Below are positions 31,644 to 43,606 of a stretch of 43,606 nucleotides of DNA, one piece after another. This DNA comes from Thiotrichaceae bacterium (lineage in GTDB: Bacteria > Pseudomonadota > Gammaproteobacteria > Thiotrichales > Thiotrichaceae). The notes beneath the pieces are model-generated. The model did not search any database and was not told the origin of the DNA. It saw nothing but the letters and a program-made list of their open reading frames with translations. Each line of letters begins with the position of its first letter. The stretch's first letter is position 1. The position numbers and the translations under genes are program-made. Where the stretch lies: assembly GCA_026989145.1 (NCBI GenBank), contig JALSJU010000110.1:1-43606 (forward strand), in the 5' to 3' direction.

Positions 31644-34600
31644 TTAATAAGCGAGTTTAAAACGCCTCATAAATAATAAGGCCGCTAAGATTAGCCAAGG
31701 CATGCTTCCACCACCACTTTTACTCGAACTGCCACCGCCATTTGAAGAACCACCACCCGCTTTAGAAACTTTAAATTTTAAAACATTGGTGTTGTTATTT
31801 GTATTTGAATCTTCTTCACTACTAGTGACTTGAGCCGAGTTACTTTGATCGCCTGTTTTGATGGCCTTTAGTACTAATTCGTAAGTTTTTTCTGATCCTG
31901 ATTTTAATGATGTTGTCTTACACTCAACTTTTTGAGCGTTTATTTTTTTGCAACCAGCAGGTGCAGAGCCTGTTAAGGATAAGCCGGCAGTAAAATTATT
32001 AATAAGAACAACATTATTAGCTTTATCAGAGCCAGAGTTTTTAACGGTAATTTTAAAGGTAACGCTATCATTGCTATTCGCTGTAACACGAACAGTTTGT
32101 AAAACCTGTAAATCAACACTCGCAGGCTTCTTTATCGTGCCACGGCGGTAAACTACTCCTTGATATGCATTACTAATCCATTTCTTAGCACTGCCACCAC
32201 TTAATGGTTTTATATGCAATGAATAACCAATTGCACTTGAGTTATCTTCTACCGAGTAGACAAGTGACTTATCATCACCCGTAAAGGATGGTGCGGTATA
32301 CGTTGAAGATTCAGCTACTTTAAATACTTTTCCTGTTGAAAGGTCTGCATAGCTTACATTAACAACTTTTGTGTCGGCATTATAAAAATCAAATGCCATT
32401 AAATTATTATTAATATTACTTAGGCTAGGAAAGCCTACTTGGCGGCTAGCTTTAGGCTTTATTAATGCTAAGGTTTTATTTGTTTGTAAATCAAGCGCAT
32501 AAATACTCCAAGCACCTACTTGTTTATTATTGACCGTAAAGGTATTTAAGGCATCATAAACAAGGTAGCGACCATTGGCGCTAAAGTCCATAGCATCCAC
32601 AGTATCAATTTTATTATCTGAGCTTGAATCATCCATTTTGGCCGCTTTTAATTTATACTCTACAAATTTCGCTTCTTTCTTGGTTAAATCCAGCAAATAA
32701 ATAGCAGGAAGTCCAGCATGATCGGCATTAGGGTCTTTTAAAACAATACTAAGGTAATGATCATCGGGTGAGAAGGCTACAGAAAAGAAGCTATCATTTT
32801 CATTGATACATTCAACTTTAGCCGTTTTAGTATCAGCCATGCAAAAGTCATGCTCTTTACTAATAAAGGCAACGGTTGTTCCGTCGCCAGAGACTGCAGG
32901 GCGATGACCACCCACCTCCTTACTTTTAAAGTAAACACCACCATCAGTATCTCCTTGCCCTTTTTCATAACGGCCTAGATACAATTTTCCATTTTGGGCT
33001 GTAATATTTATCACTGAATCAGCCGCATTAGCTGGCTTACCCGGCGAGCTAGGTGGAGGTGTTGTAGGGGCATCATAAATTTCTACAGCATCAAAGGCGC
33101 TTGCCACCGCTTTTGACTGCTTTGATTTAGCACCAAAGATATCATCCGCAGACTGAATACAGGCTTGGCGTAAATCAGAGAATTCAGAGCGCGGTAATAA
33201 GTGGGTGGTATTTGCACGGTAGAATATTTTAGCGGCATCACCATGGCCGATTGCATAGCTTCCTCCTTCTGCAAGAAGATAAAAAGCATGATTAGGGATA
33301 CCACTGTTTGTATGAACGCCTCCGTGATCTCTAGCTGTTGTGACATAGTCACTCATTTTTGCTGGATCATTATATAGGCTAGGGTCTTTCATGCTCCGTA
33401 TTTTTTCAGAAAGAAGTGTTCCCATTACCCAGTCATTAGTACCGGTAACATACCTTTCGACCATTTCACCAAAAATATCTGATAATGATTCATTGATTGC
33501 TCCAGGTTGATCTTGGTATACAAGATCAGATTCAGCATCAGTAACGCCATGAGAAACTTCATGTGCAACAACATCTAGTCCTCCAGCGTATTTCAATGCA
33601 TCACCAAAAAACATCATGTTAATACCACCGCCAGCCCAAAAAGCATTGTTATAGTTTTTACCAAGTCGAACTAGCCCCGTGATTCTACCGCCTTTAGCAT
33701 CTAAAGAGTTTCGATTGAAAGTAGTCTTGTAATAGTCATAAATTTTCGACAAATTAACAGAGGCACTAACACCATCTGCAAGCCAGCCCTGATCTGAAGA
33801 GTCTGAAACTATTCGATAATAGGATTTTAGATCTTTAAGTTCATTACTTGCTGGTTCATTTTTTGCATCATAAACATTAATGACCCCTTTTTTCTCGTCA
33901 AAGTCTAAAGGATTCATTGTAGAGCCATCAAACATGCTTTTACTCGCATCATTTAATGAATATTGCCCTGTGCTAGAGTCATGCCAAACATTTATCTTAT
34001 GTGATTCCCCGAATACCCCGTTGCCACTCCCTGTTACATTCTCTGATTTAATATTATCGAAAGATACAATGGACTTACCACTAGTAGCATTAATTAGAAC
34101 CGTTTTTAAATAGATTGGTGAAGTTTGAAGTTTTATTTCCCAAGCTAAAACAGGGGTGATATGACTCTTATCTGAATAAATAACTAATCTAGTATCTGTT
34201 TTTAAGATTTCATTTATGTTAATTGAGTGGGCTTCTGATGCAAAATTAACTGCAGCTTCTTCAGAAACTGTTGGTGTGGTTGAAATATTTGAAGGTGTAG
34301 GAATAAATTTCCCTGTCATGCCGATGACATCACCCAACTGGTTACTGTGGGTAGTTAGTTGAGACTTCCAAACAGGAATACCTTTATATTGCTGAGTATA
34401 CTTGGTATGAAATTGGCCAACATTGTCTTGGTACAGCTTTTTAATGTTAAGTTCTTGCTCCGGGAATTCTAACTTTAATAAACTATTGTACTTATCAAAA
34501 AATGCTAAATTCTTTGCTTTAATTGAGTATTCATCAGGGCTAAAGCGTATTTTATAAGAGGGTGATAAATTTTCTGATTGTTTGTTGATGCCTTTTATAA

Positions 34601-35054
34601 ATGACGGCGTGCCAATATTACTGATTTTTAGGGTGAAATCAGATTTGATTAATTTACCTTTTACTGAGAGTGGAGTTTGCAGTGTGCTGGTATTGTCATT
34701 TGGGCTAGAACGCAGGCTTTTTTTAAGAGGCGGGTTTTGTGGCAAAAAAGAGGAGTCGGTAGCCAGCTTTTTATTTTTTATGTTTTGTTTTTTATAAAAC
34801 TTCGCAAAAGAATTCAGTAGCTTTCCCTCTCGGCTGTTTGGCTCAACCGGTTGAAACTGCGCAGACTGAATTAGGGCAGATGAAATATTGTTTTCATCAT
34901 TCAGGTCCAAAGTAGAGTCGAGCTGCGATAAGGGACTGGCGTTAATATTAGTGCTAAGACCTAAAGCAAAGGTTACCGCAAAACTTAATAGTGAGATCCC
35001 CGCTTTGTTAGTAGATTTTGTCCTGTATTGTAACTTTTTGTCTTTAGTTAGCAT
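31644..35054 (-). CDS. M4 (thermolysin-like) secreted metalloprotease with propeller-like region, DUF11 and GlyGly-CTERM
   Basis: A 1136-residue secreted protease. Signal region about 12-40; propeptide with FTP/PepSY domains (about 165-335); M4 catalytic domain with zinc motif HEVSH (498-502) and third ligand in NESLSD (Glu522), followed by the HTNSGIPNHAFYLL stretch. Residues about 680-970 hold repeated VAFISKE, VAFSPDDHYL and MDFSANGRYLVYD strands typical of a WD40-like propeller. A DUF11 domain follows (about 1005-1090), then a Gly/Ser stretch and the terminal MPWLILAALLFMRR, a GlyGly-CTERM signal processed by a rhombosortase. It follows a propeptide-like lipoprotein gene by 21 bases. M4 enzymes are usually about 600 residues. 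Confidence 0.9.
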   Translation of the reverse strand: MLTKDKKLQYRTKSTNKAGISLLSFAVTFALGLSTNINASPLSQLDSTLDLNDENNISSALIQSAQFQPVEPNSREGKLLNSFAKFYKKQNIKNKKLATDSSFLPQNPPLKKSLRSSPNDNTSTLQTPLSVKGKLIKSDFTLKISNIGTPSFIKGINKQSENLSPSYKIRFSPDEYSIKAKNLAFFDKYNSLLKLEFPEQELNIKKLYQDNVGQFHTKYTQQYKGIPVWKSQLTTHSNQLGDVIGMTGKFIPTPSNISTTPTVSEEAAVNFASEAHSININEILKTDTRLVIYSDKSHITPVLAWEIKLQTSPIYLKTVLINATSGKSIVSFDNIKSENVTGSGNGVFGESHKINVWHDSSTGQYSLNDASKSMFDGSTMNPLDFDEKKGVINVYDAKNEPASNELKDLKSYYRIVSDSSDQGWLADGVSASVNLSKIYDYYKTTFNRNSLDAKGGRITGLVRLGKNYNNAFWAGGGINMMFFGDALKYAGGLDVVAHEVSHGVTDAESDLVYQDQPGAINESLSDIFGEMVERYVTGTNDWVMGTLLSEKIRSMKDPSLYNDPAKMSDYVTTARDHGGVHTNSGIPNHAFYLLAEGGSYAIGHGDAAKIFYRANTTHLLPRSEFSDLRQACIQSADDIFGAKSKQSKAVASAFDAVEIYDAPTTPPPSSPGKPANAADSVINITAQNGKLYLGRYEKGQGDTDGGVYFKSKEVGGHRPAVSGDGTTVAFISKEHDFCMADTKTAKVECINENDSFFSVAFSPDDHYLSIVLKDPNADHAGLPAIYLLDLTKKEAKFVEYKLKAAKMDDSSSDNKIDTVDAMDFSANGRYLVYDALNTFTVNNKQVGAWSIYALDLQTNKTLALIKPKASRQVGFPSLSNINNNLMAFDFYNADTKVVNVSYADLSTGKVFKVAESSTYTAPSFTGDDKSLVYSVEDNSSAIGYSLHIKPLSGGSAKKWISNAYQGVVYRRGTIKKPASVDLQVLQTVRVTANSNDSVTFKITVKNSGSDKANNVVLINNFTAGLSLTGSAPAGCKKINAQKVECKTTSLKSGSEKTYELVLKAIKTGDQSNSAQVTSSEEDSNTNNNTNVLKFKVSKAGGGSSNGGGSSSKSGGGSMPWLILAALLFMRRFKLAY

Positions 35055-35075: not shown

Positions 35076-35792
35076 TTAAAATTGCGTTCGTATTATAGAT
35101 GCTTGATTAAGAAGCTTGCCTGTTAGGGCATCAAGTATATAGGTATAACTTGTAAGTTTAGCATGACGAGCGGGTTGTAACTTATAGGCGAGTCTGGGTG
35201 TAGTGTCGTCAATGAAAAAAATCAATTTTTGGGATGTGTAATCGGTTTGGTTTAAAGCAGGGTTAATTATAGATGCCTTTTGAAACAGATGGTCACTACT
35301 CAACCCCGCATTAATATCAATATCCTTTGGGGTCGGAAAATACTCGCCACGGACTATTTGCAATTCATGTTCGCGGTTAAAGTGTATAGAGATTATCCCC
35401 TGCCAAACGGGAATTCCTTGATATTGTTGCTTCAGTTTAATACGAGTAAAACCAAGATCATCGGTTTTATTGGAGCTGACTTTAAACTCTTTTGCAGGCT
35501 CGTTGATTAAAAATTCGTTGCGGTATTTTTGTAAAAAATTAACAGCAGCTTGCTCCATTGTTTCTGAGTCAGTGGCTTTTTTATAAAGCGTTTGCGTGGA
35601 GTTATTGTCTTTGAGTAGCTTCACCGTTTTATTGTGAGGGTTTCTTTTTAACAAGAAATCTTTTGATAGCGTTTGCATAGGCTCGGCATTGATGTCATTT
35701 ACTTTGTTTAACGTTGTATTACCAGCACAAGCAGATAAATTTACAACAGTAAGTGAAAGGCTGAGTAATAATAAGGCTTTAAAAAATATCAT
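35076..35792 (-). CDS. Lipoprotein made of a stand-alone FTP/PepSY propeptide-like domain
   Basis: From the ATG at 35792 the protein has 238 residues; a TTG at 35801 is an alternative. The leader ends LSAC (Cys22 lipobox). The mature domain resembles the propeptide of the neighbouring M4 protease: QQYQGIPVWQGIIS and GEYFPTPKDI match QQYKGIPVWKSQLT and GKFIPTPSNI. TYILDALTGKLL near the end fits PepSY. M4 propeptides fold and inhibit their protease, so a membrane-held inhibitor or chaperone is likely. The protease gene follows after 21 bases. Confidence 0.8.
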   Translation of the reverse strand: MIFFKALLLLSLSLTVVNLSACAGNTTLNKVNDINAEPMQTLSKDFLLKRNPHNKTVKLLKDNNSTQTLYKKATDSETMEQAAVNFLQKYRNEFLINEPAKEFKVSSNKTDDLGFTRIKLKQQYQGIPVWQGIISIHFNREHELQIVRGEYFPTPKDIDINAGLSSDHLFQKASIINPALNQTDYTSQKLIFFIDDTTPRLAYKLQPARHAKLTSYTYILDALTGKLLNQASIIRTQF

Positions 35793-35923
35793 AGTAAGCA
35801 ATTTAATCTAAACGTTTATTATCGCAATTAGGTGTATTGATAACGATGCATTATCATATTTCTAGCAATTATCTGGCATAATTTATAATCACTTCTATAT
35901 TAGCAAACATTAAAGGAATACTC

Positions 35924-36658: not shown

Positions 36659-38512
36659 TCAATTTGTAAGCCTCAAATAAAGCAAAGGCAACTTCTTAGG
36701 TAACTCTGCCGCATTATTAATCAAAACATAGGAACGACCGCCAAATAAATACGGCAAATAGTCTTCTGCTTGTTCATCAATGGTGACACAAAAGGGTCGA
36801 AGCCCTAATTTTTCGGCTTCTAATACCGCTTGGCGTGTGTCTTCTATACCGTATCTTCCTTCGTATTTATCCAGGTCATTGGGTTTGCCATCGGTGAGGA
36901 TGAGAAGTAGTTTTTGGCTACTGGTTTCTTTTGATAATAACTGTGTGGCATGGCGAATGGCCGCACCCATGCGGGTGTAATAGCCTGGGTGGATGGCATT
37001 GATGTGACCGCGTACGTTGTCATCGTATTTGTCATCAAAGCCTTTGATATTGTAGAAACGGATGTGACTTCGATTGCGAGATGAAAATCCGTGTAGCGCA
37101 AAACGATCACCGGTGGCGGTGAGTGCTTCTGAGAATAAAAAGAGCGAGTCACGCACCACATCAACCACACGTGCATGGTTGTTGATGTGCGCATCGGTTG
37201 ATAACGAGAGATCTGCCAGCAACAAACAGGAGAGGTCACGGGTTTTATTGCGTAGCTCTTGATAGACGGGCGTATCACTATTCACTTGTCCACGTTTAAG
37301 ATCAGATAAGAAATTAACATAATTTTCTAAATCTATTTCTGTGCCATCGCTTTGTCGATTTATCCAGTGGCGTTGTGGGCGTAGCACTTCAAATTGACGG
37401 CGAATTTTATGCGCTTGTTGTTGCAATCGTTTAGGTAGCTCCGTTGGCTCGGTATCGCGAGATTCCATTTCTTGCAATCGACAATGGGCTTTTTGTAGTT
37501 TTGGTTGTCTGTAATCCCATTCATCAATGGGGATGCCTTCACCGAGCACAATATCGTCGTATTTGTTGGATGGGAGATCTAAGTCTAGCTTGATTTTGCT
37601 GGCAGTGGTTTGGCTGTCTTGAGCGACGGTAATATTATCCATATCCTCTGCCGTTTCCATCGCGTCATCGTCATCATCTTCGAGACTGGTGCGGTCTACT
37701 TTGCTAAATTCGGCCCAGCTCCATAGGCTTTCAAGACGAAAAGTCATTAGCCCCTCGTTACCTGTTGGCATATCTTCACGGTTGCCTTGTTTACGCTTTT
37801 GTTGTTTCTTTTGATCTTTTTTAGTCTGTGGTGCCTCTTCAATGTCTGGGTCTTGAATGCTCTTTTGTTCTATTAATTCTTCATTAGGCGGGGCAGGGTG
37901 CAACCATAAAACGACAGGCTGTGGAGGTCGTTTTGCATATTTTATATTTTCAGTTGAAGTCGCGTTTATTAATGCATGACGGATGATTATTTCTTGCTCG
38001 GCTTCATCCTTTGCTAAATTTTCAGGCTTAGGGCGTTGTGCTAAATGGGCTTTTAACAATGTTTGGTAACGTTGATTTAAACCGGGCCAAATTTCTAAGG
38101 TTTTAACGGTTCGATATTGGTTTCTGCTAATCCAGTTTGTATTGTGTTCTGTTGGTATATCTTCTTCAGCAACCACGGATAAAGCGGTTAGCCATAAATA
38201 TAAATCAAGATTCAGTTGCCTAGTCGGAAAGAGGGCAATGCTATCAGGAAGTCGTAAAGTCTCTTCATCACGCCAAGCATATTGTGTTTTATCGCCCATG
38301 CCAGCGATGCGTTGTAGGATGGTTCGACGCGTGTGTAGCGTTGACTCGGTTGCGTTTTCTACGCGCAAACCGCCCTCACCACCCAATGCACGGAAGAAAA
38401 TACCTGCGGTATAACGAACCTCATCTAATGTGACTGCGGCATCAGGGTAGTTGGTGTCAGCACGTTTTGTGATGAAACGATGCCATGTTGAGCCGACTAA
38501 TTCTTCTAGCAT
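36659..38512 (-). CDS. norD: NorD-like VWA protein, nitric oxide reductase activation
   Basis: A 617-residue cytoplasmic protein with a C-terminal von Willebrand factor A domain. The MIDAS metal site reads DLSLS at 434-438; YTRMGAAIRH and ILTDGKPNDLDKYEGRYGIEDT fit the other MIDAS blocks. The N-terminal half is helical with an acidic linker (about 278-292). NorD works with the NorQ ATPase to insert iron into the NorB subunit. AAGGA sits 8 bases ahead of the ATG. It is last in the leftward operon, 22 bases after the zinc-ribbon gene. norB itself is not in the window. Confidence 0.92.
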   Translation of the reverse strand: MLEELVGSTWHRFITKRADTNYPDAAVTLDEVRYTAGIFFRALGGEGGLRVENATESTLHTRRTILQRIAGMGDKTQYAWRDEETLRLPDSIALFPTRQLNLDLYLWLTALSVVAEEDIPTEHNTNWISRNQYRTVKTLEIWPGLNQRYQTLLKAHLAQRPKPENLAKDEAEQEIIIRHALINATSTENIKYAKRPPQPVVLWLHPAPPNEELIEQKSIQDPDIEEAPQTKKDQKKQQKRKQGNREDMPTGNEGLMTFRLESLWSWAEFSKVDRTSLEDDDDDAMETAEDMDNITVAQDSQTTASKIKLDLDLPSNKYDDIVLGEGIPIDEWDYRQPKLQKAHCRLQEMESRDTEPTELPKRLQQQAHKIRRQFEVLRPQRHWINRQSDGTEIDLENYVNFLSDLKRGQVNSDTPVYQELRNKTRDLSCLLLADLSLSTDAHINNHARVVDVVRDSLFLFSEALTATGDRFALHGFSSRNRSHIRFYNIKGFDDKYDDNVRGHINAIHPGYYTRMGAAIRHATQLLSKETSSQKLLLILTDGKPNDLDKYEGRYGIEDTRQAVLEAEKLGLRPFCVTIDEQAEDYLPYLFGGRSYVLINNAAELPKKLPLLYLRLTN

Positions 38513-38534
38513 GTTAGTGTCCTTTTTATCTCAA

Positions 38535-38741
38535 TCATTGTCCAAGTACTGGCGTTGAGCCAAACCACGGCAAAATTATCATCATGCTTAGCGAGAAAAG
38601 AACCAGAAAGATAAACCAGAAGATGAATCTGCGTTGCGGTGATGTTTGCTGATTAGTGGGCAAGGGCATTCCACAGCTAGGGCAGGTTTTATCATCAGAA
38701 CTGACCTTGTTATTGCAATGATTACAGATTAATTGCCTCAT
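38535..38741 (-). CDS. Small zinc-ribbon membrane protein
   Basis: A 68-residue protein with a zinc ribbon (Cys6, Cys9, Cys20, Cys23: ICNHC and TCPSC) followed by one membrane helix (about 38-60). AGAGG precedes the ATG. It sits between the norEF-like pair and norD. Function unknown; a role in assembly of the membrane complex is only suggested by position. Confidence 0.7.
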   Translation of the reverse strand: MRQLICNHCNNKVSSDDKTCPSCGMPLPTNQQTSPQRRFIFWFIFLVLFSLSMMIILPWFGSTPVLGQ

Positions 38742-38901
38742 AATAGCCTCTTTTTGCTGTTTAACAGGTGTTTCTTAAGACCACCCCCCCACTTTTTTAG
38801 TGAGCTTGCCGTTTCGTTTTTTGAAACGGACAACTCAATTATGTCGCTGCTGTTTGGCGACGTGGTTTTGTATTTTTGATTTGGTGTAACGGTAGTTATC
38901 A
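38742..38901. other. 160-base gap with hairpins inside the nor operon
   Basis: Between the second norF-like gene and the zinc-ribbon gene lie CCGTTTC with GAAACGG (around 38810-38830), GTCGC with GCGAC (around 38843-38862), and CCACCCCCCCACTTTTTTAG (38781-38800), which almost repeats part of the terminator at 42541-42586. This may split the operon into two transcripts. Confidence 0.4.
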
Positions 38902-39192
38902 TTAGAGCATCGTCCATTTAGCAATCTGTTCAGGGAATAAATAAACAATAATGATTAGCGAAGGAATAACGTAAAAATAAGTTCGCATCAGTGTTCTCAA
39001 AACAATGTGAGCCTTTTTTAGCTCCATAAAATGATCAACAATAATCCTGCCTTTAATTGCCAGTACGATGGCCATGATGCTTGCACTTATAAAGCTTGTA
39101 TCAGCACGTTCTGCCATATAAGCACTCAAAAGTGTTAAGGCTAAAAGGACTACCCAAAGCGTGCCTATTGTTCTTTTGTGTGTCATATTCAT
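38902..39192 (-). CDS. NorF / cytochrome c oxidase subunit IV-like protein, second copy
   Basis: A 96-residue membrane protein of the COX4_pro family (PF03626): three helices and the loop KGRIIVDHFMELKKAHIVLRTLMRTY, matching the IxxFMxL-R pattern of NorF. It is coupled to the preceding norE-like gene by a one-base overlap (TAATG). It resembles the copy at 41532. NorF improves nitric oxide reductase activity in denitrifiers. Confidence 0.8.
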   Translation of the reverse strand: MNMTHKRTIGTLWVVLLALTLLSAYMAERADTSFISASIMAIVLAIKGRIIVDHFMELKKAHIVLRTLMRTYFYVIPSLIIIVYLFPEQIAKWTML

Positions 39193-39818
39193 TACCTAAT
39201 CACATACAACAGTGGAAAAATAGTAATCCAAGCCAAATCAATCATGTGCCAATAAACCGCCATATTGATTAAGCCTTCGTGTTCGTTTGATGTGTAGATG
39301 CCTGTGTTTATTCGATAGATCACCCAAATCAAACCCGCACTACCCCAACCAACGTGTAAAAAATGGTTGAAGGTTACATAGTAATAAACGCCGTAAAAAA
39401 TATTAGTTTCAGTGGCTAAACCTTGTGTGGTGTTCCAATGATATTCAAATGCTTTGATAATGAGGTAAATCACACCACAAGCCACAGCGCCCCAAAGCCA
39501 GTTTGCACTTTGTTTGGGCTTATTTGTGCGTGTTGCTATTACGGCTCTCACCACAAAAAAACTACTGGTGAGCATTACAAGGGTGTTAGTTGTGCCCGCT
39601 AAGGTGCTGAGCCTTGTTGGGCCTTCGTGAAAAAGCTCGGGGTTATGTACTTTTGCTAAAAAGTAGACGATAAACATAATCGCAAACTCACTCATTTCTG
39701 CCAAAATCGCAAACCAGATTGCGATGCTTCCAGGGATGTTAGCTTTCTTTACTACAAAATTTAACTGTTCAGAAGTAGGTTTTGTTTGGGAGACATATGA
39801 GGAAGCAAGGGCATTCAT
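39192..39818 (-). CDS. NorE / heme-copper oxidase subunit III-like protein, second copy
   Basis: From the ATG at 39818 the protein has 208 residues; GAGAAG in the end of the upstream gene serves as ribosome site, and the longer frame is ruled out by the overlap of 68 bases. It has five membrane helices and the conserved PGSIAIWFAILAEMSEFAIMF at the start of the first, TNTLVMLTSSFFVVRA, and the C-terminal AVYWHMIDLAWITIFPLLYVIR. It is a short subunit III of the NorE type and pairs with the downstream norF-like gene. Confidence 0.85.
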   Translation of the reverse strand: MNALASSYVSQTKPTSEQLNFVVKKANIPGSIAIWFAILAEMSEFAIMFIVYFLAKVHNPELFHEGPTRLSTLAGTTNTLVMLTSSFFVVRAVIATRTNKPKQSANWLWGAVACGVIYLIIKAFEYHWNTTQGLATETNIFYGVYYYVTFNHFLHVGWGSAGLIWVIYRINTGIYTSNEHEGLINMAVYWHMIDLAWITIFPLLYVIR

Positions 39819-39819
39819 G

Positions 39820-40233
39820 TTACTTCTCAATACTCTTTTCGATACCCAATAGGTTTCCAATAATTGGAAACCTAAAGTTTCTCTCATTAATAGCTTTTGA
39901 AAAGCCTAAAACACCTAAAAGCATAAAAAGTGGTACGATAATCATCAGGTAAATTTCAGCCATGAGTAAGGCCTGAACGGAGGCAAAACCCGTGGTTAAA
40001 AATGCGATAATAGCAAGTGTTAGTGCAATAGCCGTCGTGAGGGTGCTTCCCCATAAGGCTTGTTTAATATGATTTTTACTAACTTGTGAAGCATTTTTAT
40101 AGGCGAGAAAATAGAGCGCCCAAAGGATTAAATAGAAAATCCCAATAAACAATAAATTAGCCATGAAGAAAGCCATCGCCACTGCGCCTGTATAATCATG
40201 GGTAAATTTTTCTTTGTATTTTTGATCGTCCAT
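39820..40233 (-). CDS. Four-helix membrane protein of unknown function in nor cluster
   Basis: A 137-residue membrane protein with about four helices (roughly 15-45, 65-85, 90-105 and 105-115 region) and a basic end FRFPIIGNLLGIEKSIEK. The FPIIGNLL motif resembles the end of DUF4870/Tic20-like proteins, but the match is weak. Its start follows the norQ stop by 2 bases and its stop precedes the norE-like ATG by one base, so it is tightly bound to the operon. The role is unknown. Confidence 0.6.
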   Translation of the reverse strand: MDDQKYKEKFTHDYTGAVAMAFFMANLLFIGIFYLILWALYFLAYKNASQVSKNHIKQALWGSTLTTAIALTLAIIAFLTTGFASVQALLMAEIYLMIIVPLFMLLGVLGFSKAINERNFRFPIIGNLLGIEKSIEK

Positions 40234-40235
40234 TG

Positions 40236-41018
40236 CTAGCTTCCGATCTTTGCGCGCACCACTTCCATTAACGCTTCAACCGTTTCTTCATCATCGGTAA
40301 GTGGCTCGATAATGGCTGCACGACAAGCATCAATGGGCGCAAAGCCTGCATTGATTAAGGTCGCGGCATAAACTAATAGTCGGGTGGAGGCGGATTCTTC
40401 TAAATCATGGTCTTTTAAAGCGCGTAAAGCGTGAGCAAGTTCAATCAGTTGGGTTGCTGTTTTGTCATCAATTTTAGTTTCATTTTGGATAATGGTCGTT
40501 TCTGTTGCCACATCGGGGTAATTAAAACGCATAGAAATAAAACGTTGGCGCGTTGAGGGCTTCATGCCTTTAAGTAAGTTTTGATAGCCGGGGTTGTAAG
40601 AGACGATTAACATAAAATCTTTGGGTGCTTCTAATAATTCGCCAGTACGTTCGATAGGGAGAATCCGACGATCATCCGATAACGGGTGGAGTACAACCGT
40701 GGTATCTTTACGCGCTTCAACCACTTCATCTAAATAACAAATTGCTCCTTCTCTTACTGCCTTGGTGAGCGGACCATCTTGCCAATAGGTTTCGCCATCG
40801 CCAATTAAATGCCTGCCGACTAAATCAGCGGCGGTTAAATCATCGTGACAGGCAACGGTGTAAAGCTTGCGTCCTAATTTTGCCGCCATGTGTTGAATAA
40901 AACGGGTTTTACCACAACCGGTAGGCCCTTTGATTAATAAAGGTAGTTGGTTGTTGTAAGAGTGTTCAAATAGCTCAACTTCGTTGTTTTGGGTTTGGTA
41001 ATAGGGGATGTCGCTCAT
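40236..41018 (-). CDS. norQ: NorQ/CbbQ-family AAA+ ATPase
   Basis: A 260-residue MoxR-type ATPase that, with NorD, activates nitric oxide reductase. Walker A GPTGCGKT at 31-38, Walker B AICYLDEVVEARKDT, sensor 1 MLIVSYNPGYQNLLKGMKP and arginine finger region STRQRFISMRF are all typical of NorQ/CbbQ. AGAGAG precedes the ATG. CbbQ (RuBisCO activase) is excluded because no RuBisCO or CbbO is nearby and NorD follows. Confidence 0.92.
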   Translation of the reverse strand: MSDIPYYQTQNNEVELFEHSYNNQLPLLIKGPTGCGKTRFIQHMAAKLGRKLYTVACHDDLTAADLVGRHLIGDGETYWQDGPLTKAVREGAICYLDEVVEARKDTTVVLHPLSDDRRILPIERTGELLEAPKDFMLIVSYNPGYQNLLKGMKPSTRQRFISMRFNYPDVATETTIIQNETKIDDKTATQLIELAHALRALKDHDLEESASTRLLVYAATLINAGFAPIDACRAAIIEPLTDDEETVEALMEVVRAKIGS

Positions 41019-41063
41019 GTGTGCTCTCTTGGTAATTTTTATAAGTGATTTGTTAGTGTTTTG

Positions 41064-41519
41064 CTAGGGATTTTGGTACCCATTAATCACTGCAAATTTT
41101 GCCGTCATCATATCCATCGTATTGACGTGTTGTTCAAACCATGTGGGCCAAGCTGAAAAGATATAGTTTTTGACTAATTCAATGTCTTGGCTATCACTCC
41201 AAGCGTTTATTAGCTCACGCAAAAGATTTAAAGCTTTTACGTGTTCACTAGCGTGTATCTCGTAGGCAGGAAAGCCCGTTTCTTGCATAAGCGCATTTTC
41301 ACGCTCAAAGTGTAAAATGGTGTGATCTAACCATGCGTTTAATTTCTTGCTGAGTGCCTGCTGGTTTTCATCACTATTCTCTGAGATATATGTATCGATA
41401 AGCTCGCCAATCTCTCTCACTATTTTGATTTCTTCAAAGTGAGTAGCATTCATAAAATCAAGTTCTACAGATGGAATTTCATCCTGTTGTAGCGTTTTTC
41501 TAACAGTATTTGTGGTCAT
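41064..41519 (-). CDS. Bacteriohemerythrin-domain protein
   Basis: A 151-residue four-helix bundle with the full di-iron ligand set: His27, His66, His70, Glu74, His89, His93, His131 and Asp136 (in HFERENAL, HASEHVKAL and EQHVNTMD). Hemerythrins bind O2 and can bind NO. AAGGAGG precedes the ATG. It sits between norF-like and norQ in a nor-accessory operon with an Fnr box, so NO detoxification, sensing or O2 delivery is the likely job. Confidence 0.9.
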   Translation of the reverse strand: MTTNTVRKTLQQDEIPSVELDFMNATHFEEIKIVREIGELIDTYISENSDENQQALSKKLNAWLDHTILHFERENALMQETGFPAYEIHASEHVKALNLLRELINAWSDSQDIELVKNYIFSAWPTWFEQHVNTMDMMTAKFAVINGYQNP

Positions 41520-41531
41520 AAGTAGCCCTCC

Positions 41532-41828
41532 TTATTTATTAGAGACTAAATAAATAATAAAAATTGCTAACGTTGCACCCCACAACCAGCCATACATAAT
41601 CACCCGCCAAAGCAGTGAAACATCACGAAGCTCCATAAAATCACGAATAATTAGCGTGCCTTTAACCACCGCTGTTAGCAGTAAAACAAGCACACTAACA
41701 ATGCCGCTAAAGCCAAACTTTCCTAATGCATAGCTGAGTATCGTTAGGGCTACCATCGCTAACCAAATGCTATGGATGTTGATGTGATTTTGAATGGTTT
41801 TTTTCACGCGTTTTTCATCCCTTATCAT
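41532..41828 (-). CDS. NorF / cytochrome c oxidase subunit IV-like protein, first copy
   Basis: A 98-residue three-helix protein of the COX4_pro family with VKGTLIIRDFMELRDVSLLWRVIMYGW, the NorF signature. AGAGG lies directly before the ATG at 41828. It follows the first norE-like gene by 17 bases. The divergence between the two norF-like copies is large, so they are not a recent duplication. Confidence 0.8.
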   Translation of the reverse strand: MIRDEKRVKKTIQNHINIHSIWLAMVALTILSYALGKFGFSGIVSVLVLLLTAVVKGTLIIRDFMELRDVSLLWRVIMYGWLWGATLAIFIIYLVSNK

Positions 41829-41845
41829 CCTCTTTCATCTTTCTT

Positions 41846-42427
41846 TTATCGGATTATATAAACGAGCGGAAACAAGATAATCCAAACCAAATCAACCATA
41901 TGCCAATACGATGCACCCGTTTCGACGCCATAATGATTGTTAGCGCTGTAATGACCCCGTTTTGCTTTTATCACAATCGCAAATAAAATAATCATGCCTA
42001 AAATCACGTGTAAAAAATGAAACATCGTGAGAGACAGGTAAAACATATAAAAGGTATTGGTGCTGAGTGTGATACCTGCCGAAAACTTATCGTAATATTC
42101 CAGTGATTTTAAGAGCAAAAAACCAGCGCCAAAGCCAAGTGCAATATTCAGATTAGTGATGCACGCTTTAACCCTGTCCAACTTAATCGCATGAACCGCC
42201 CGAACCACAAAATAGCTAGAAGTAATGAGCAGTAGCGTGTTAACTGCACCCGATTCTTTATTAAGCGTTAATTGGAACTCATTAAAAAGCGCCACATTTT
42301 GAGCACGCGTAACCGCGTAAGCGATAAAGGCAATCGCAAACACCAGTAGCTCCATAAAAATAAAAAACCAAATCGCCAAATCACCTGGGAGTAGCTTTGG
42401 CTCTTGTAATGTTATTGGCTCATTCAC
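41846..42427 (-). CDS. NorE / heme-copper oxidase subunit III-like protein, first copy
   Basis: A 193-residue membrane protein of five helices: PGDLAIWFFIFMELLVFAIAF, LLLITSSYFVVRAVHAI, FYMFYLSLTMFHFLHVILGM and ASYWHMVDLVWIILFPLVYIIR are NorE/subunit III features. It is the first gene of the leftward nor-accessory operon; a perfect Fnr-type box lies 62 bases before the ATG. NorE supports nitric oxide reductase and is not catalytic itself. Confidence 0.85.
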   Translation of the reverse strand: MNEPITLQEPKLLPGDLAIWFFIFMELLVFAIAFIAYAVTRAQNVALFNEFQLTLNKESGAVNTLLLITSSYFVVRAVHAIKLDRVKACITNLNIALGFGAGFLLLKSLEYYDKFSAGITLSTNTFYMFYLSLTMFHFLHVILGMIILFAIVIKAKRGHYSANNHYGVETGASYWHMVDLVWIILFPLVYIIR

Positions 42428-42548: not shown

Positions 42549-42586
42549 GGGGGGTGGCAAAATAAGCCTATAAATTGCCACCCCCC
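42549..42586 (-). terminator. Intrinsic terminator insulating the nor operon
   Basis: GGGGGGTGGCAA (42549-42560) and TTGCCACCCCCC (42575-42586) form a perfect, GC-rich 12-bp stem with a 14-base loop. On the minus strand it is followed by TACTTTTTTG. It would stop leftward transcripts arriving from the right before the nor promoter; on the plus strand GTGTTTTTG follows, so it could work both ways. Confidence 0.75.
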
Positions 42587-42624
42587 GTGTTTTTGCCACT
42601 TTTGTAACAATACTCAACTTCGTT

Positions 42625-42644
42625 ATACTGGTGAAAACCAGTAT
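42625..42644. repeat. 8-bp hairpin with GAAA loop
   Basis: ATACTGGT and ACCAGTAT pair perfectly around GAAA. Together with the REP-like palindrome 30 bases on, it looks like part of a composite intergenic repeat. Confidence 0.5.
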
Positions 42645-42671
42645 CTATTTACGATTAGGCGATGCGTCAAC

Positions 42672-42700
42672 CGTGGATTGCGGTCTTCACCGCAATGACG
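42672..42700. repeat. REP-like palindrome
   Basis: ATTGCGGT (42677-42684) and ACCGCAAT (42689-42696) pair around CTTC, within GTGGATTGCGGTC...ACCGCAATGACG. Palindromes of the pattern GTCATTGCGG...CCGCAATCCAC are common extragenic repeats in many Proteobacteria. Confidence 0.6.
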
Positions 42701-42712
42701 AGTGGTTGATTT

Positions 42713-42976
42713 TTGTTGATAAGATTATGGCTGTCCTTTAGTTGGTATCCTCACATCAGTGAAGAGGAAGTAGATAGTCTGGTCATAAGATTTGTTAAAA
42801 GTCATTTTTACGGCATAGATATCAACAGTGACTATAAGCAAATGCAAGGCACGCTTACGGATACATACAGGATAAGAAAAGGAAACATAAGAATCATCGT
42901 CAAAGTTGTAAACGATGAAGTGATGATAGAAGCTATCAGATCAGATATAGGCTACAGAGGTGGGATTTACAAATAG
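42713..42976 (+). pseudogene. RelE/ParE-superfamily toxin remnant
   Basis: The C-terminal half reads YRIRKGNIRIIVKVVNDEVMIEAIRSDIGYRGGIYK, the pattern of RelE/ParE-type toxins (YRIR-G-yRi, then a terminal hydrophobic strand). The N-terminus is unlike the family, starts only at TTG codons and has no ribosome site, and no antitoxin gene is visible. It is most likely a 5'-damaged toxin gene. No downstream antitoxin fits: after the stop only a 40-residue unrelated open stretch (GSVAIGGLVVGRPQ) remains. Confidence 0.5.
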
Positions 42977-43166
42977 TTTGGCACACTTGGTTCAGTGGCG
43001 ATTGGTGGGCTTGTGGTAGGTAGACCTCAAATGCATAGCAGAGACTACTTCTATACTCTTCGAGGAGCAGGTAGCTGTGTTACTTCTTTTTTGGGAGTAG
43101 GGTTCATATAGCATCCATATTGGAAGGTTATACTCTTTAGTGTGAAAAAAATATTGGAGATATAAA

Positions 43167-43496
43167 ATGAAAATAAAAATGATAACAGCTAGTCTATTTG
43201 TAAGTATGATGCTTCATGCAGTGAATGTAGGTGAGGTACTGCCTCTTGTGGTTTTAGATAAAGATAATGGAGGAGACAGTAAAGACAACGCATGGCACTC
43301 AAAAAATCTTCAGGGTAAAGTGCATATCTTGCTTTATATGGATCCTGATAAACGTGAAGAGTCAATGCCCTTTTTAGATACATTAAATGCAGAGAAATAT
43401 GATAAAAAGAAGTATTCGACCGTAGCCATTGTTAACTTGGCTGCGACATGGATGCCTGATGCTATCTTAGAATCGTTACTTGAGACCTTTGCATGA
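43167..43496 (+). pseudogene. YtfJ-like thioredoxin-fold protein, truncated
   Basis: A 109-residue fragment with signal peptide MKIKMITASLFVSMMLHA and a YtfJ-type domain: GEVLPLVVLDKDNGGDSKDN, WHSKNLQGKVHILLYMDPDKRE, STVAIVNLAATWMPDAILESLLE. YtfJ proteins are about 180 residues; here the frame ends abruptly after LLETFA, with the C-terminal half missing. GGAG precedes the ATG. The break coincides with GAGACCTTTGCATGA (43482-43496), which resembles the end of an insertion sequence. The style of the protein is reminiscent of Campylobacterota, but that is an impression. Confidence 0.6.
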
Positions 43497-43606
43497 GATC
43501 TCATTTTCCAATTTATTCTGATAATTGAGTTGGATGTTAAAAAAACATCAAATCAATCGCTAGTTCTTCTCTATTTTTACCTTAATACTTACATTTTTAA
43601 GCCTAT
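43482..43606. mobile_element. Possible left end of an insertion sequence
   Basis: GAGACCTTTGCATGAGATC starts exactly where the YtfJ-like reading frame loses similarity to its family. Termini beginning GAGACCTTTGCA occur in some insertion sequences as I recall them. The rest of the window shows no coding frame; the transposase, if any, lies beyond the edge. Confidence 0.35.

Follow-up and report, generated by a model that had tools for sequence, protein, structure and literature searches.

The window analysed here, a stretch of 43,606 nucleotides, is the entire contig JALSJU010000110.1 (C110) of a Thiotrichaceae MAG (GenBank assembly GCA_026989145.1; 2.63 Mb in 133 contigs, 97.69% complete, 2.42% contaminated). 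It carries, on the minus strand, nine genes in the order norE1-norF1-Hr-norQ-M4-norE2-norF2-Zr-norD (36659-42427; Table 1), and all nine reading frames are open. Neither norB nor norC is present in the window. The genes named in an earlier note on this DNA, which was made from the sequence alone, are real and lie on the minus strand where the note had put them, but a ninth gene, Zr, situated between norF2 and norD, had been overlooked.

Table 1. Features of the operon and of the stretch upstream of norE1. Pfam cut-offs (bits): COX3, 23.8; COX4_pro, 28.9; Hemerythrin (PF01814), 25.3; Zn_Ribbon_1, 25; DUF4870, 25.
Feature	Position	Strand	Description	Evidence
norD	36659..38512	-	VWA-domain partner of NorQ	Pfam VWA
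Zr	38535..38741	-	68-aa zinc ribbon (CxxC..CxxC) with one hydrophobic segment	Pfam Zn_Ribbon_1 29.3 bits
norF2	38902..39192	-		Pfam COX4_pro 37.4 bits
norE2	39192..39818	-	second, anciently diverged NorE lineage	Pfam COX3 36.9 bits
M4 (X2)	39820..40233	-	four-helix membrane protein	DUF4870 below cut-off (19.9 bits)
norQ	40236..41018	-	MoxR-type AAA+ ATPase	Pfam AAA_5 and CbbQ_C
Hr	41064..41519	-	single-domain hemerythrin	Pfam PF01814 29.7 bits; alignment
norF1	41532..41828	-	COX4_pro/NorF-type	Pfam COX4_pro 45.0 bits
norE1	41846..42427	-	COX3/NorE-type membrane protein, GTG start	Pfam COX3 61.6 bits; tree placement
Perfect FNR/DNR-type box TTGATGATCATCAA	42489..42502	.	61 bases ahead of norE1 start	
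Upstream stretch	42560..43480	.	occupies the place of X1 and norBC in relatives with linked norCB	
Repeat end	43480..43606	.	last 127 bases; contig breaks here	

Proteins encoded by the operon

The identification of norQ and norD agrees with the Pfam matches to AAA_5, CbbQ_C and VWA. The best PDB match of NorQ is the NorQ of entry 9qhd (E 8.3e-106), and NorD is matched by chain G, the NorD of the same entry (E 2.1e-92). The operon hence encodes two of the accessory proteins by which cNOR clusters are recognized, a NorQ-type AAA+ ATPase with CbbQ_C and a NorD that combines a VWA domain with likeness to the solved NorD. The two subunit III/IV-like pairs that had been proposed are also borne out: both E proteins exceed the COX3 and both F proteins the COX4_pro cut-off, and each pair joins a COX3-like NorE to a COX4_pro-like NorF, as in cNOR accessory gene sets. 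NorE1 belongs to the lineage that usually adjoins norCB in the mapped loci, and NorE2 is matched by solved structures as an oxidase subunit III. The reading frame of norE2 as called reaches 39887; a start at the ATG at 39818, which follows the M4 stop by one base, would yield a protein of 208 amino acids. Since the E2 reading frames of relatives are 208 amino acids or shorter in 13 of 14 cases, the frame was probably over-called, and this ATG is the likelier start.

The description of Hr as a complete bacteriohemerythrin stands in part. The protein passes the Pfam Hemerythrin cut-off, is matched by solved structures, and displays in its alignment the motifs H / HxxxE / HxxxH / HxxxxD, which we take to be the seven-ligand pattern of hemerythrins; however, it stays below the curated cut-off of the NCBIfam bacteriohemerythrin subfamily (NF033749; 47.8 vs 84 bits). 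Zr recurs ahead of norD in other loci, and its alignment comprises 17 loci that were picked because they carry this gene.

M4 had been described as an unknown four-helix protein. It matches no Pfam family above threshold, but there is a sub-threshold match to DUF4870; among four M4 homologues scanned, three likewise score below the DUF4870 cut-off and the fourth gives no match. Most relatives in which norCB is linked encode a second small membrane protein, X1, in the interval from norB to norE1. Comparison of the M4 and X1 profiles gave 71.7% (E 3.5e-5), set against at most 0.91% for 18 different-family pairs and 98-100% for the F1-F2 and E1-E2 pairs in the same run, and the best match between single sequences has an E of 8.4e-5. 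M4 and X1 are thus probably homologous. Structure models of M4 (mean pLDDT 81.2) and X1 (76.6) yielded no PDB match at E ≤0.001. A strict duplication of an X-norE-norF triple was considered and dropped, as G002 keeps M4 without E2/F2, and both L168 and L177 show X-like matches in the interval from norQ to norD. An ACCCCCC-type motif between X1 and E1 was likewise discarded as proof of an old junction, the motif being dispersed.

On the norD side of the operon, the window contains a 1136-aa ORF (31644-35054) that reads, by its sequence, as a secreted thermolysin-type metalloprotease, and a 241-aa ORF (35076-35801) that looks related to it.

Two NorEF lineages in related genomes

The earlier note had proposed a search for the same gene set in other genomes and a phylogeny of the pairs. 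An E2 query was run on 57 relatives, 63 genomes of the family and 369 of the class (each set including the window's own genome); it retrieved 17 loci in named genomes, which are labelled Thiotrichaceae, Cocleimonas, Piscirickettsiaceae, or unplaced Gammaproteobacteria and Proteobacteria. After records of one contig had been joined, there were 16 distinct loci in which a single operon contains both norEF pairs (the window, G009, G006, G007, L111, L112 (= L174), L114, L115, L117, L118 (with L123), L121 (= L175), G005, G025, G060, L113 and G062). G062, with only the first part of E2 on its contig, is counted among them. Three cases were left out: L168 (G410), whose two pairs are divergent and whose fetched 17.6 kb contain no norB; G034, which retains a remnant of E2; and an additional E2/F2 copy of G025 (L067:3877-4840), which is frame-broken and resides on a different contig from the intact operon of that genome. 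The recurrence of the same gene order in many genomes means that the arrangement is not due to chance. In a limited search of the open-licence literature, no account of two norEF pairs sharing a nor operon came up.

Ten of the 16 loci carry norB on the contig of the operon, upstream of E1 (L115 shows only its last 37 codons), and X1 was detected between the two genes in eight of these ten; in G009, a gene reading as GGDEF/EAL is found there. G025 and G062 each possess a single norB on a contig without E1, and other genes precede E1, so that the operon is truly separated from norCB in these two genomes. Contig breaks leave the linkage open in four loci (G005, G060, L113 and the window), and G034 and G013 display other rearrangements.

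Phylogenetic analysis of 77 NorE and oxidase subunit III proteins (89 matches, identical ones merged) places the E2 proteins, together with homologues from other families, in a clade of 22 rows on a long branch with support of 100/99. Three members (L143, L144, L150) are themselves on long branches, and the position of L144 and L150 is flagged as possibly false joining. By this tree, the E2 clade is deep and the two NorEF lineages were separated anciently, in keeping with the divergence the note had seen; a recent tandem duplication of norEF was dropped as an explanation. E2-type pairs also occur in other surroundings. L173 carries one as the sole NorEF of a norCBDQ-EF cluster, and in L168 the pair is divergent and stands beside a norE operon. 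Four loci (L169-L172) have an E2-type pair without norCB in the fetched stretch, the F protein of L172 being closer to F1 and L171 containing a partial norD-like match. In L119, the pair follows genes that read as NorR-like and CcoG-like; the CcoG-like gene is directly ahead of E2/F2 (L119:7587-9927), in a MAG labelled Polarisedimenticolaceae that is possibly mis-binned.

The box ahead of norE1, named after what we take to be the FNR/DNR-type consensus, is the only match in the window, where 0.15 are expected and 15 of 100 shuffles contain at least one. The identical 14 bases precede E1 in G007, G002 and G062. Among the 14 two-pair loci in which the stretch before E1 is in view, seven, the window included, have a perfect box no more than 300 bases from E1 (six of the 13 others), and the remaining seven, G006 and G025 among them, have none. 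This distribution makes it probable that the operon has an FNR/DNR-type promoter of its own; such a promoter is likely here and is not a fixed feature of these loci.

The contig end and the missing norCB

The absence of the catalytic genes asserted in the earlier note holds for the window and, as far as searched, for the bin: norB was not found in a run that detected it in 27 of 63 genomes, and norC was not found in a search without a positive control. The combination of catalytic norC and norB that marks a cNOR cluster is thus seen in neither. Upstream of norE1, the contig continues for 1.2 kb without norCB and stops inside a multi-copy repeat. Copies of this repeat (97-130 bases, 99-100% identity) are present in 12 further contigs of the bin, in at least 10 of them within one base of the contig end. 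Such a pattern is expected where an assembly fails at a repeat that it cannot resolve; to call the repeat an insertion sequence would be a guess. Because the contig stops there, norCB may lie beyond the break, elsewhere, or among unbinned sequences. The note had named norCB next to the operon, in a layout common among relatives, as the finding that would overturn its reading; exactly this is seen in relatives, but adjacency is unreadable in the window's own genome. We consider it very probable that the operon forms the accessory part of a cNOR cluster and that its norCB went unseen; the likeliest reason is the break of the contig at the repeat, with the norCB stretch left unassembled or unbinned. 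That stretch would be situated just past the break or at a distance, as in some relatives.

A true loss of norCB, perhaps with a regulator and nirS, when foreign DNA and the repeat landed upstream of norE1 would leave the operon as a recent relic or with a role for the hemerythrin only. Foreign-looking ORFs do adjoin norE1, an observation that fits this reading and the preceding one alike: the upstream stretch, which is probably foreign DNA, contains a RelE-like ORF (42713-42976; matching phrog_1213 and no Pfam family) and a truncated YtfJ-like ORF (43167-43496) without a match in 56 other genomes searched. Furthermore, besides norB and norC, this nearly complete bin was found to lack a close match to the DNR-type regulator of the relatives (best match 28%), and both nitrite reductase searches stayed below cut-off. 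For nirS, a short match over positions 5-78 of 368 reaches 24.9 bits (cut-off 25.5), compared with 400.6 bits for a real NirS from G025 with the same model; the best nirK value is 62.3 bits (cut-off 296.3). A real loss of denitrification is therefore possible. Since nirS shares the stretch with norCB in G005, G007, G025 and G013, among others, and is missing from the norCB stretches of G006 and G009, a single missing block of norCB and nirS is likewise possible in the window organism. The nine open reading frames and the perfect box, however, speak against loss, as does a survey of the 63 family genomes: norB occurs in 21 of the 22 with a norE match, the window's MAG being the exception, and incompleteness alone would produce 1.26 such drop-outs (six further genomes have norB but no norE match). 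All in all, we regard loss as unlikely.

The earlier note had left three options for the operon: service to an unlinked NO reductase, to an unusual heme-copper enzyme, or to two separate enzymes. The first is supported by G025 and G062, whose single norB was found elsewhere. The proposed search for norB and heme-copper oxidases brought no norB to light. The bin yielded a single COX1-family gene, a fragment truncated by the contig end where C53 begins; we call it cbb3-type because the next gene reads as ccoO. This neighbourhood led us to drop a new kind of heme-copper enzyme. The norB linked to the operon in G006 encodes an ordinary cNOR subunit (best PDB match 3o0r, E 8.5e-223), which tells against the unusual enzyme and the two separate enzymes alike. 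One might still suppose that NorQ/NorD and one NorEF pair now serve another enzyme such as the cbb3-type oxidase (no other heme-copper enzyme was found in the bin), and point to the four E2-type loci without norCB and to the CcoG-like gene of L119; but the linkage to norCB in 10 of 16 loci and the best matches of NorQ and NorD, both to their solved namesakes, render this extremely improbable. It is also very unlikely that the organism has no norCB at all and has kept a promoter-bearing NorQD with a double NorEF to mature or complete a different heme-copper enzyme.

Place of the operon among nor systems

The operon is accordingly placed as a cNOR accessory arm and not as a new enzyme. NorQ and NorD are required for FeB insertion into cNOR, as described in PMC9976466 and PMC13036017, and the latter gives NorE and NorF no known function. 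By homology, NorQ hexamers and NorD would insert the non-heme iron FeB into NorB and so activate NorCB; NorE and NorF, both small membrane proteins, are relatives of oxidase subunits III and IV; the hemerythrin would probably bind NO or O2 under NO stress.

The Paracoccus-type norEFCBQD cluster shares norE, norF, norQ and norD with the operon, and many relatives have norCB upstream. In contrast to that cluster, the window's contig lacks norCB, possesses two NorEF lineages instead of one, and adds a hemerythrin, X-type membrane protein(s) and Zr. NorA of Ralstonia/Cupriavidus, which binds NO and works together with NO reductase (PMC9045102), is similar in being a hemerythrin-type di-iron protein encoded with NO-reduction genes; the likeness is drawn from this description, and the protein studied here differs as a single-domain hemerythrin within a norEF-QD operon.

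These findings dispose of an attractive but wrong idea, that of an NO reductase lacking its catalytic subunits, and illustrate a way in which such a gap can arise. PMC8139620 states that norQD is always linked to norCB; G025 and G062 contradict this, and the norEF-QD arm is thus separable from norCB. A deep second NorEF lineage can sit in one operon with the usual one, and it is of mild interest that a single operon unites two anciently separated lineages of NorEF with a pair of small membrane proteins that are probably related to each other. As NorE and NorF lack a known function, genomes that contain both lineages offer a natural comparison for studying what these proteins do.
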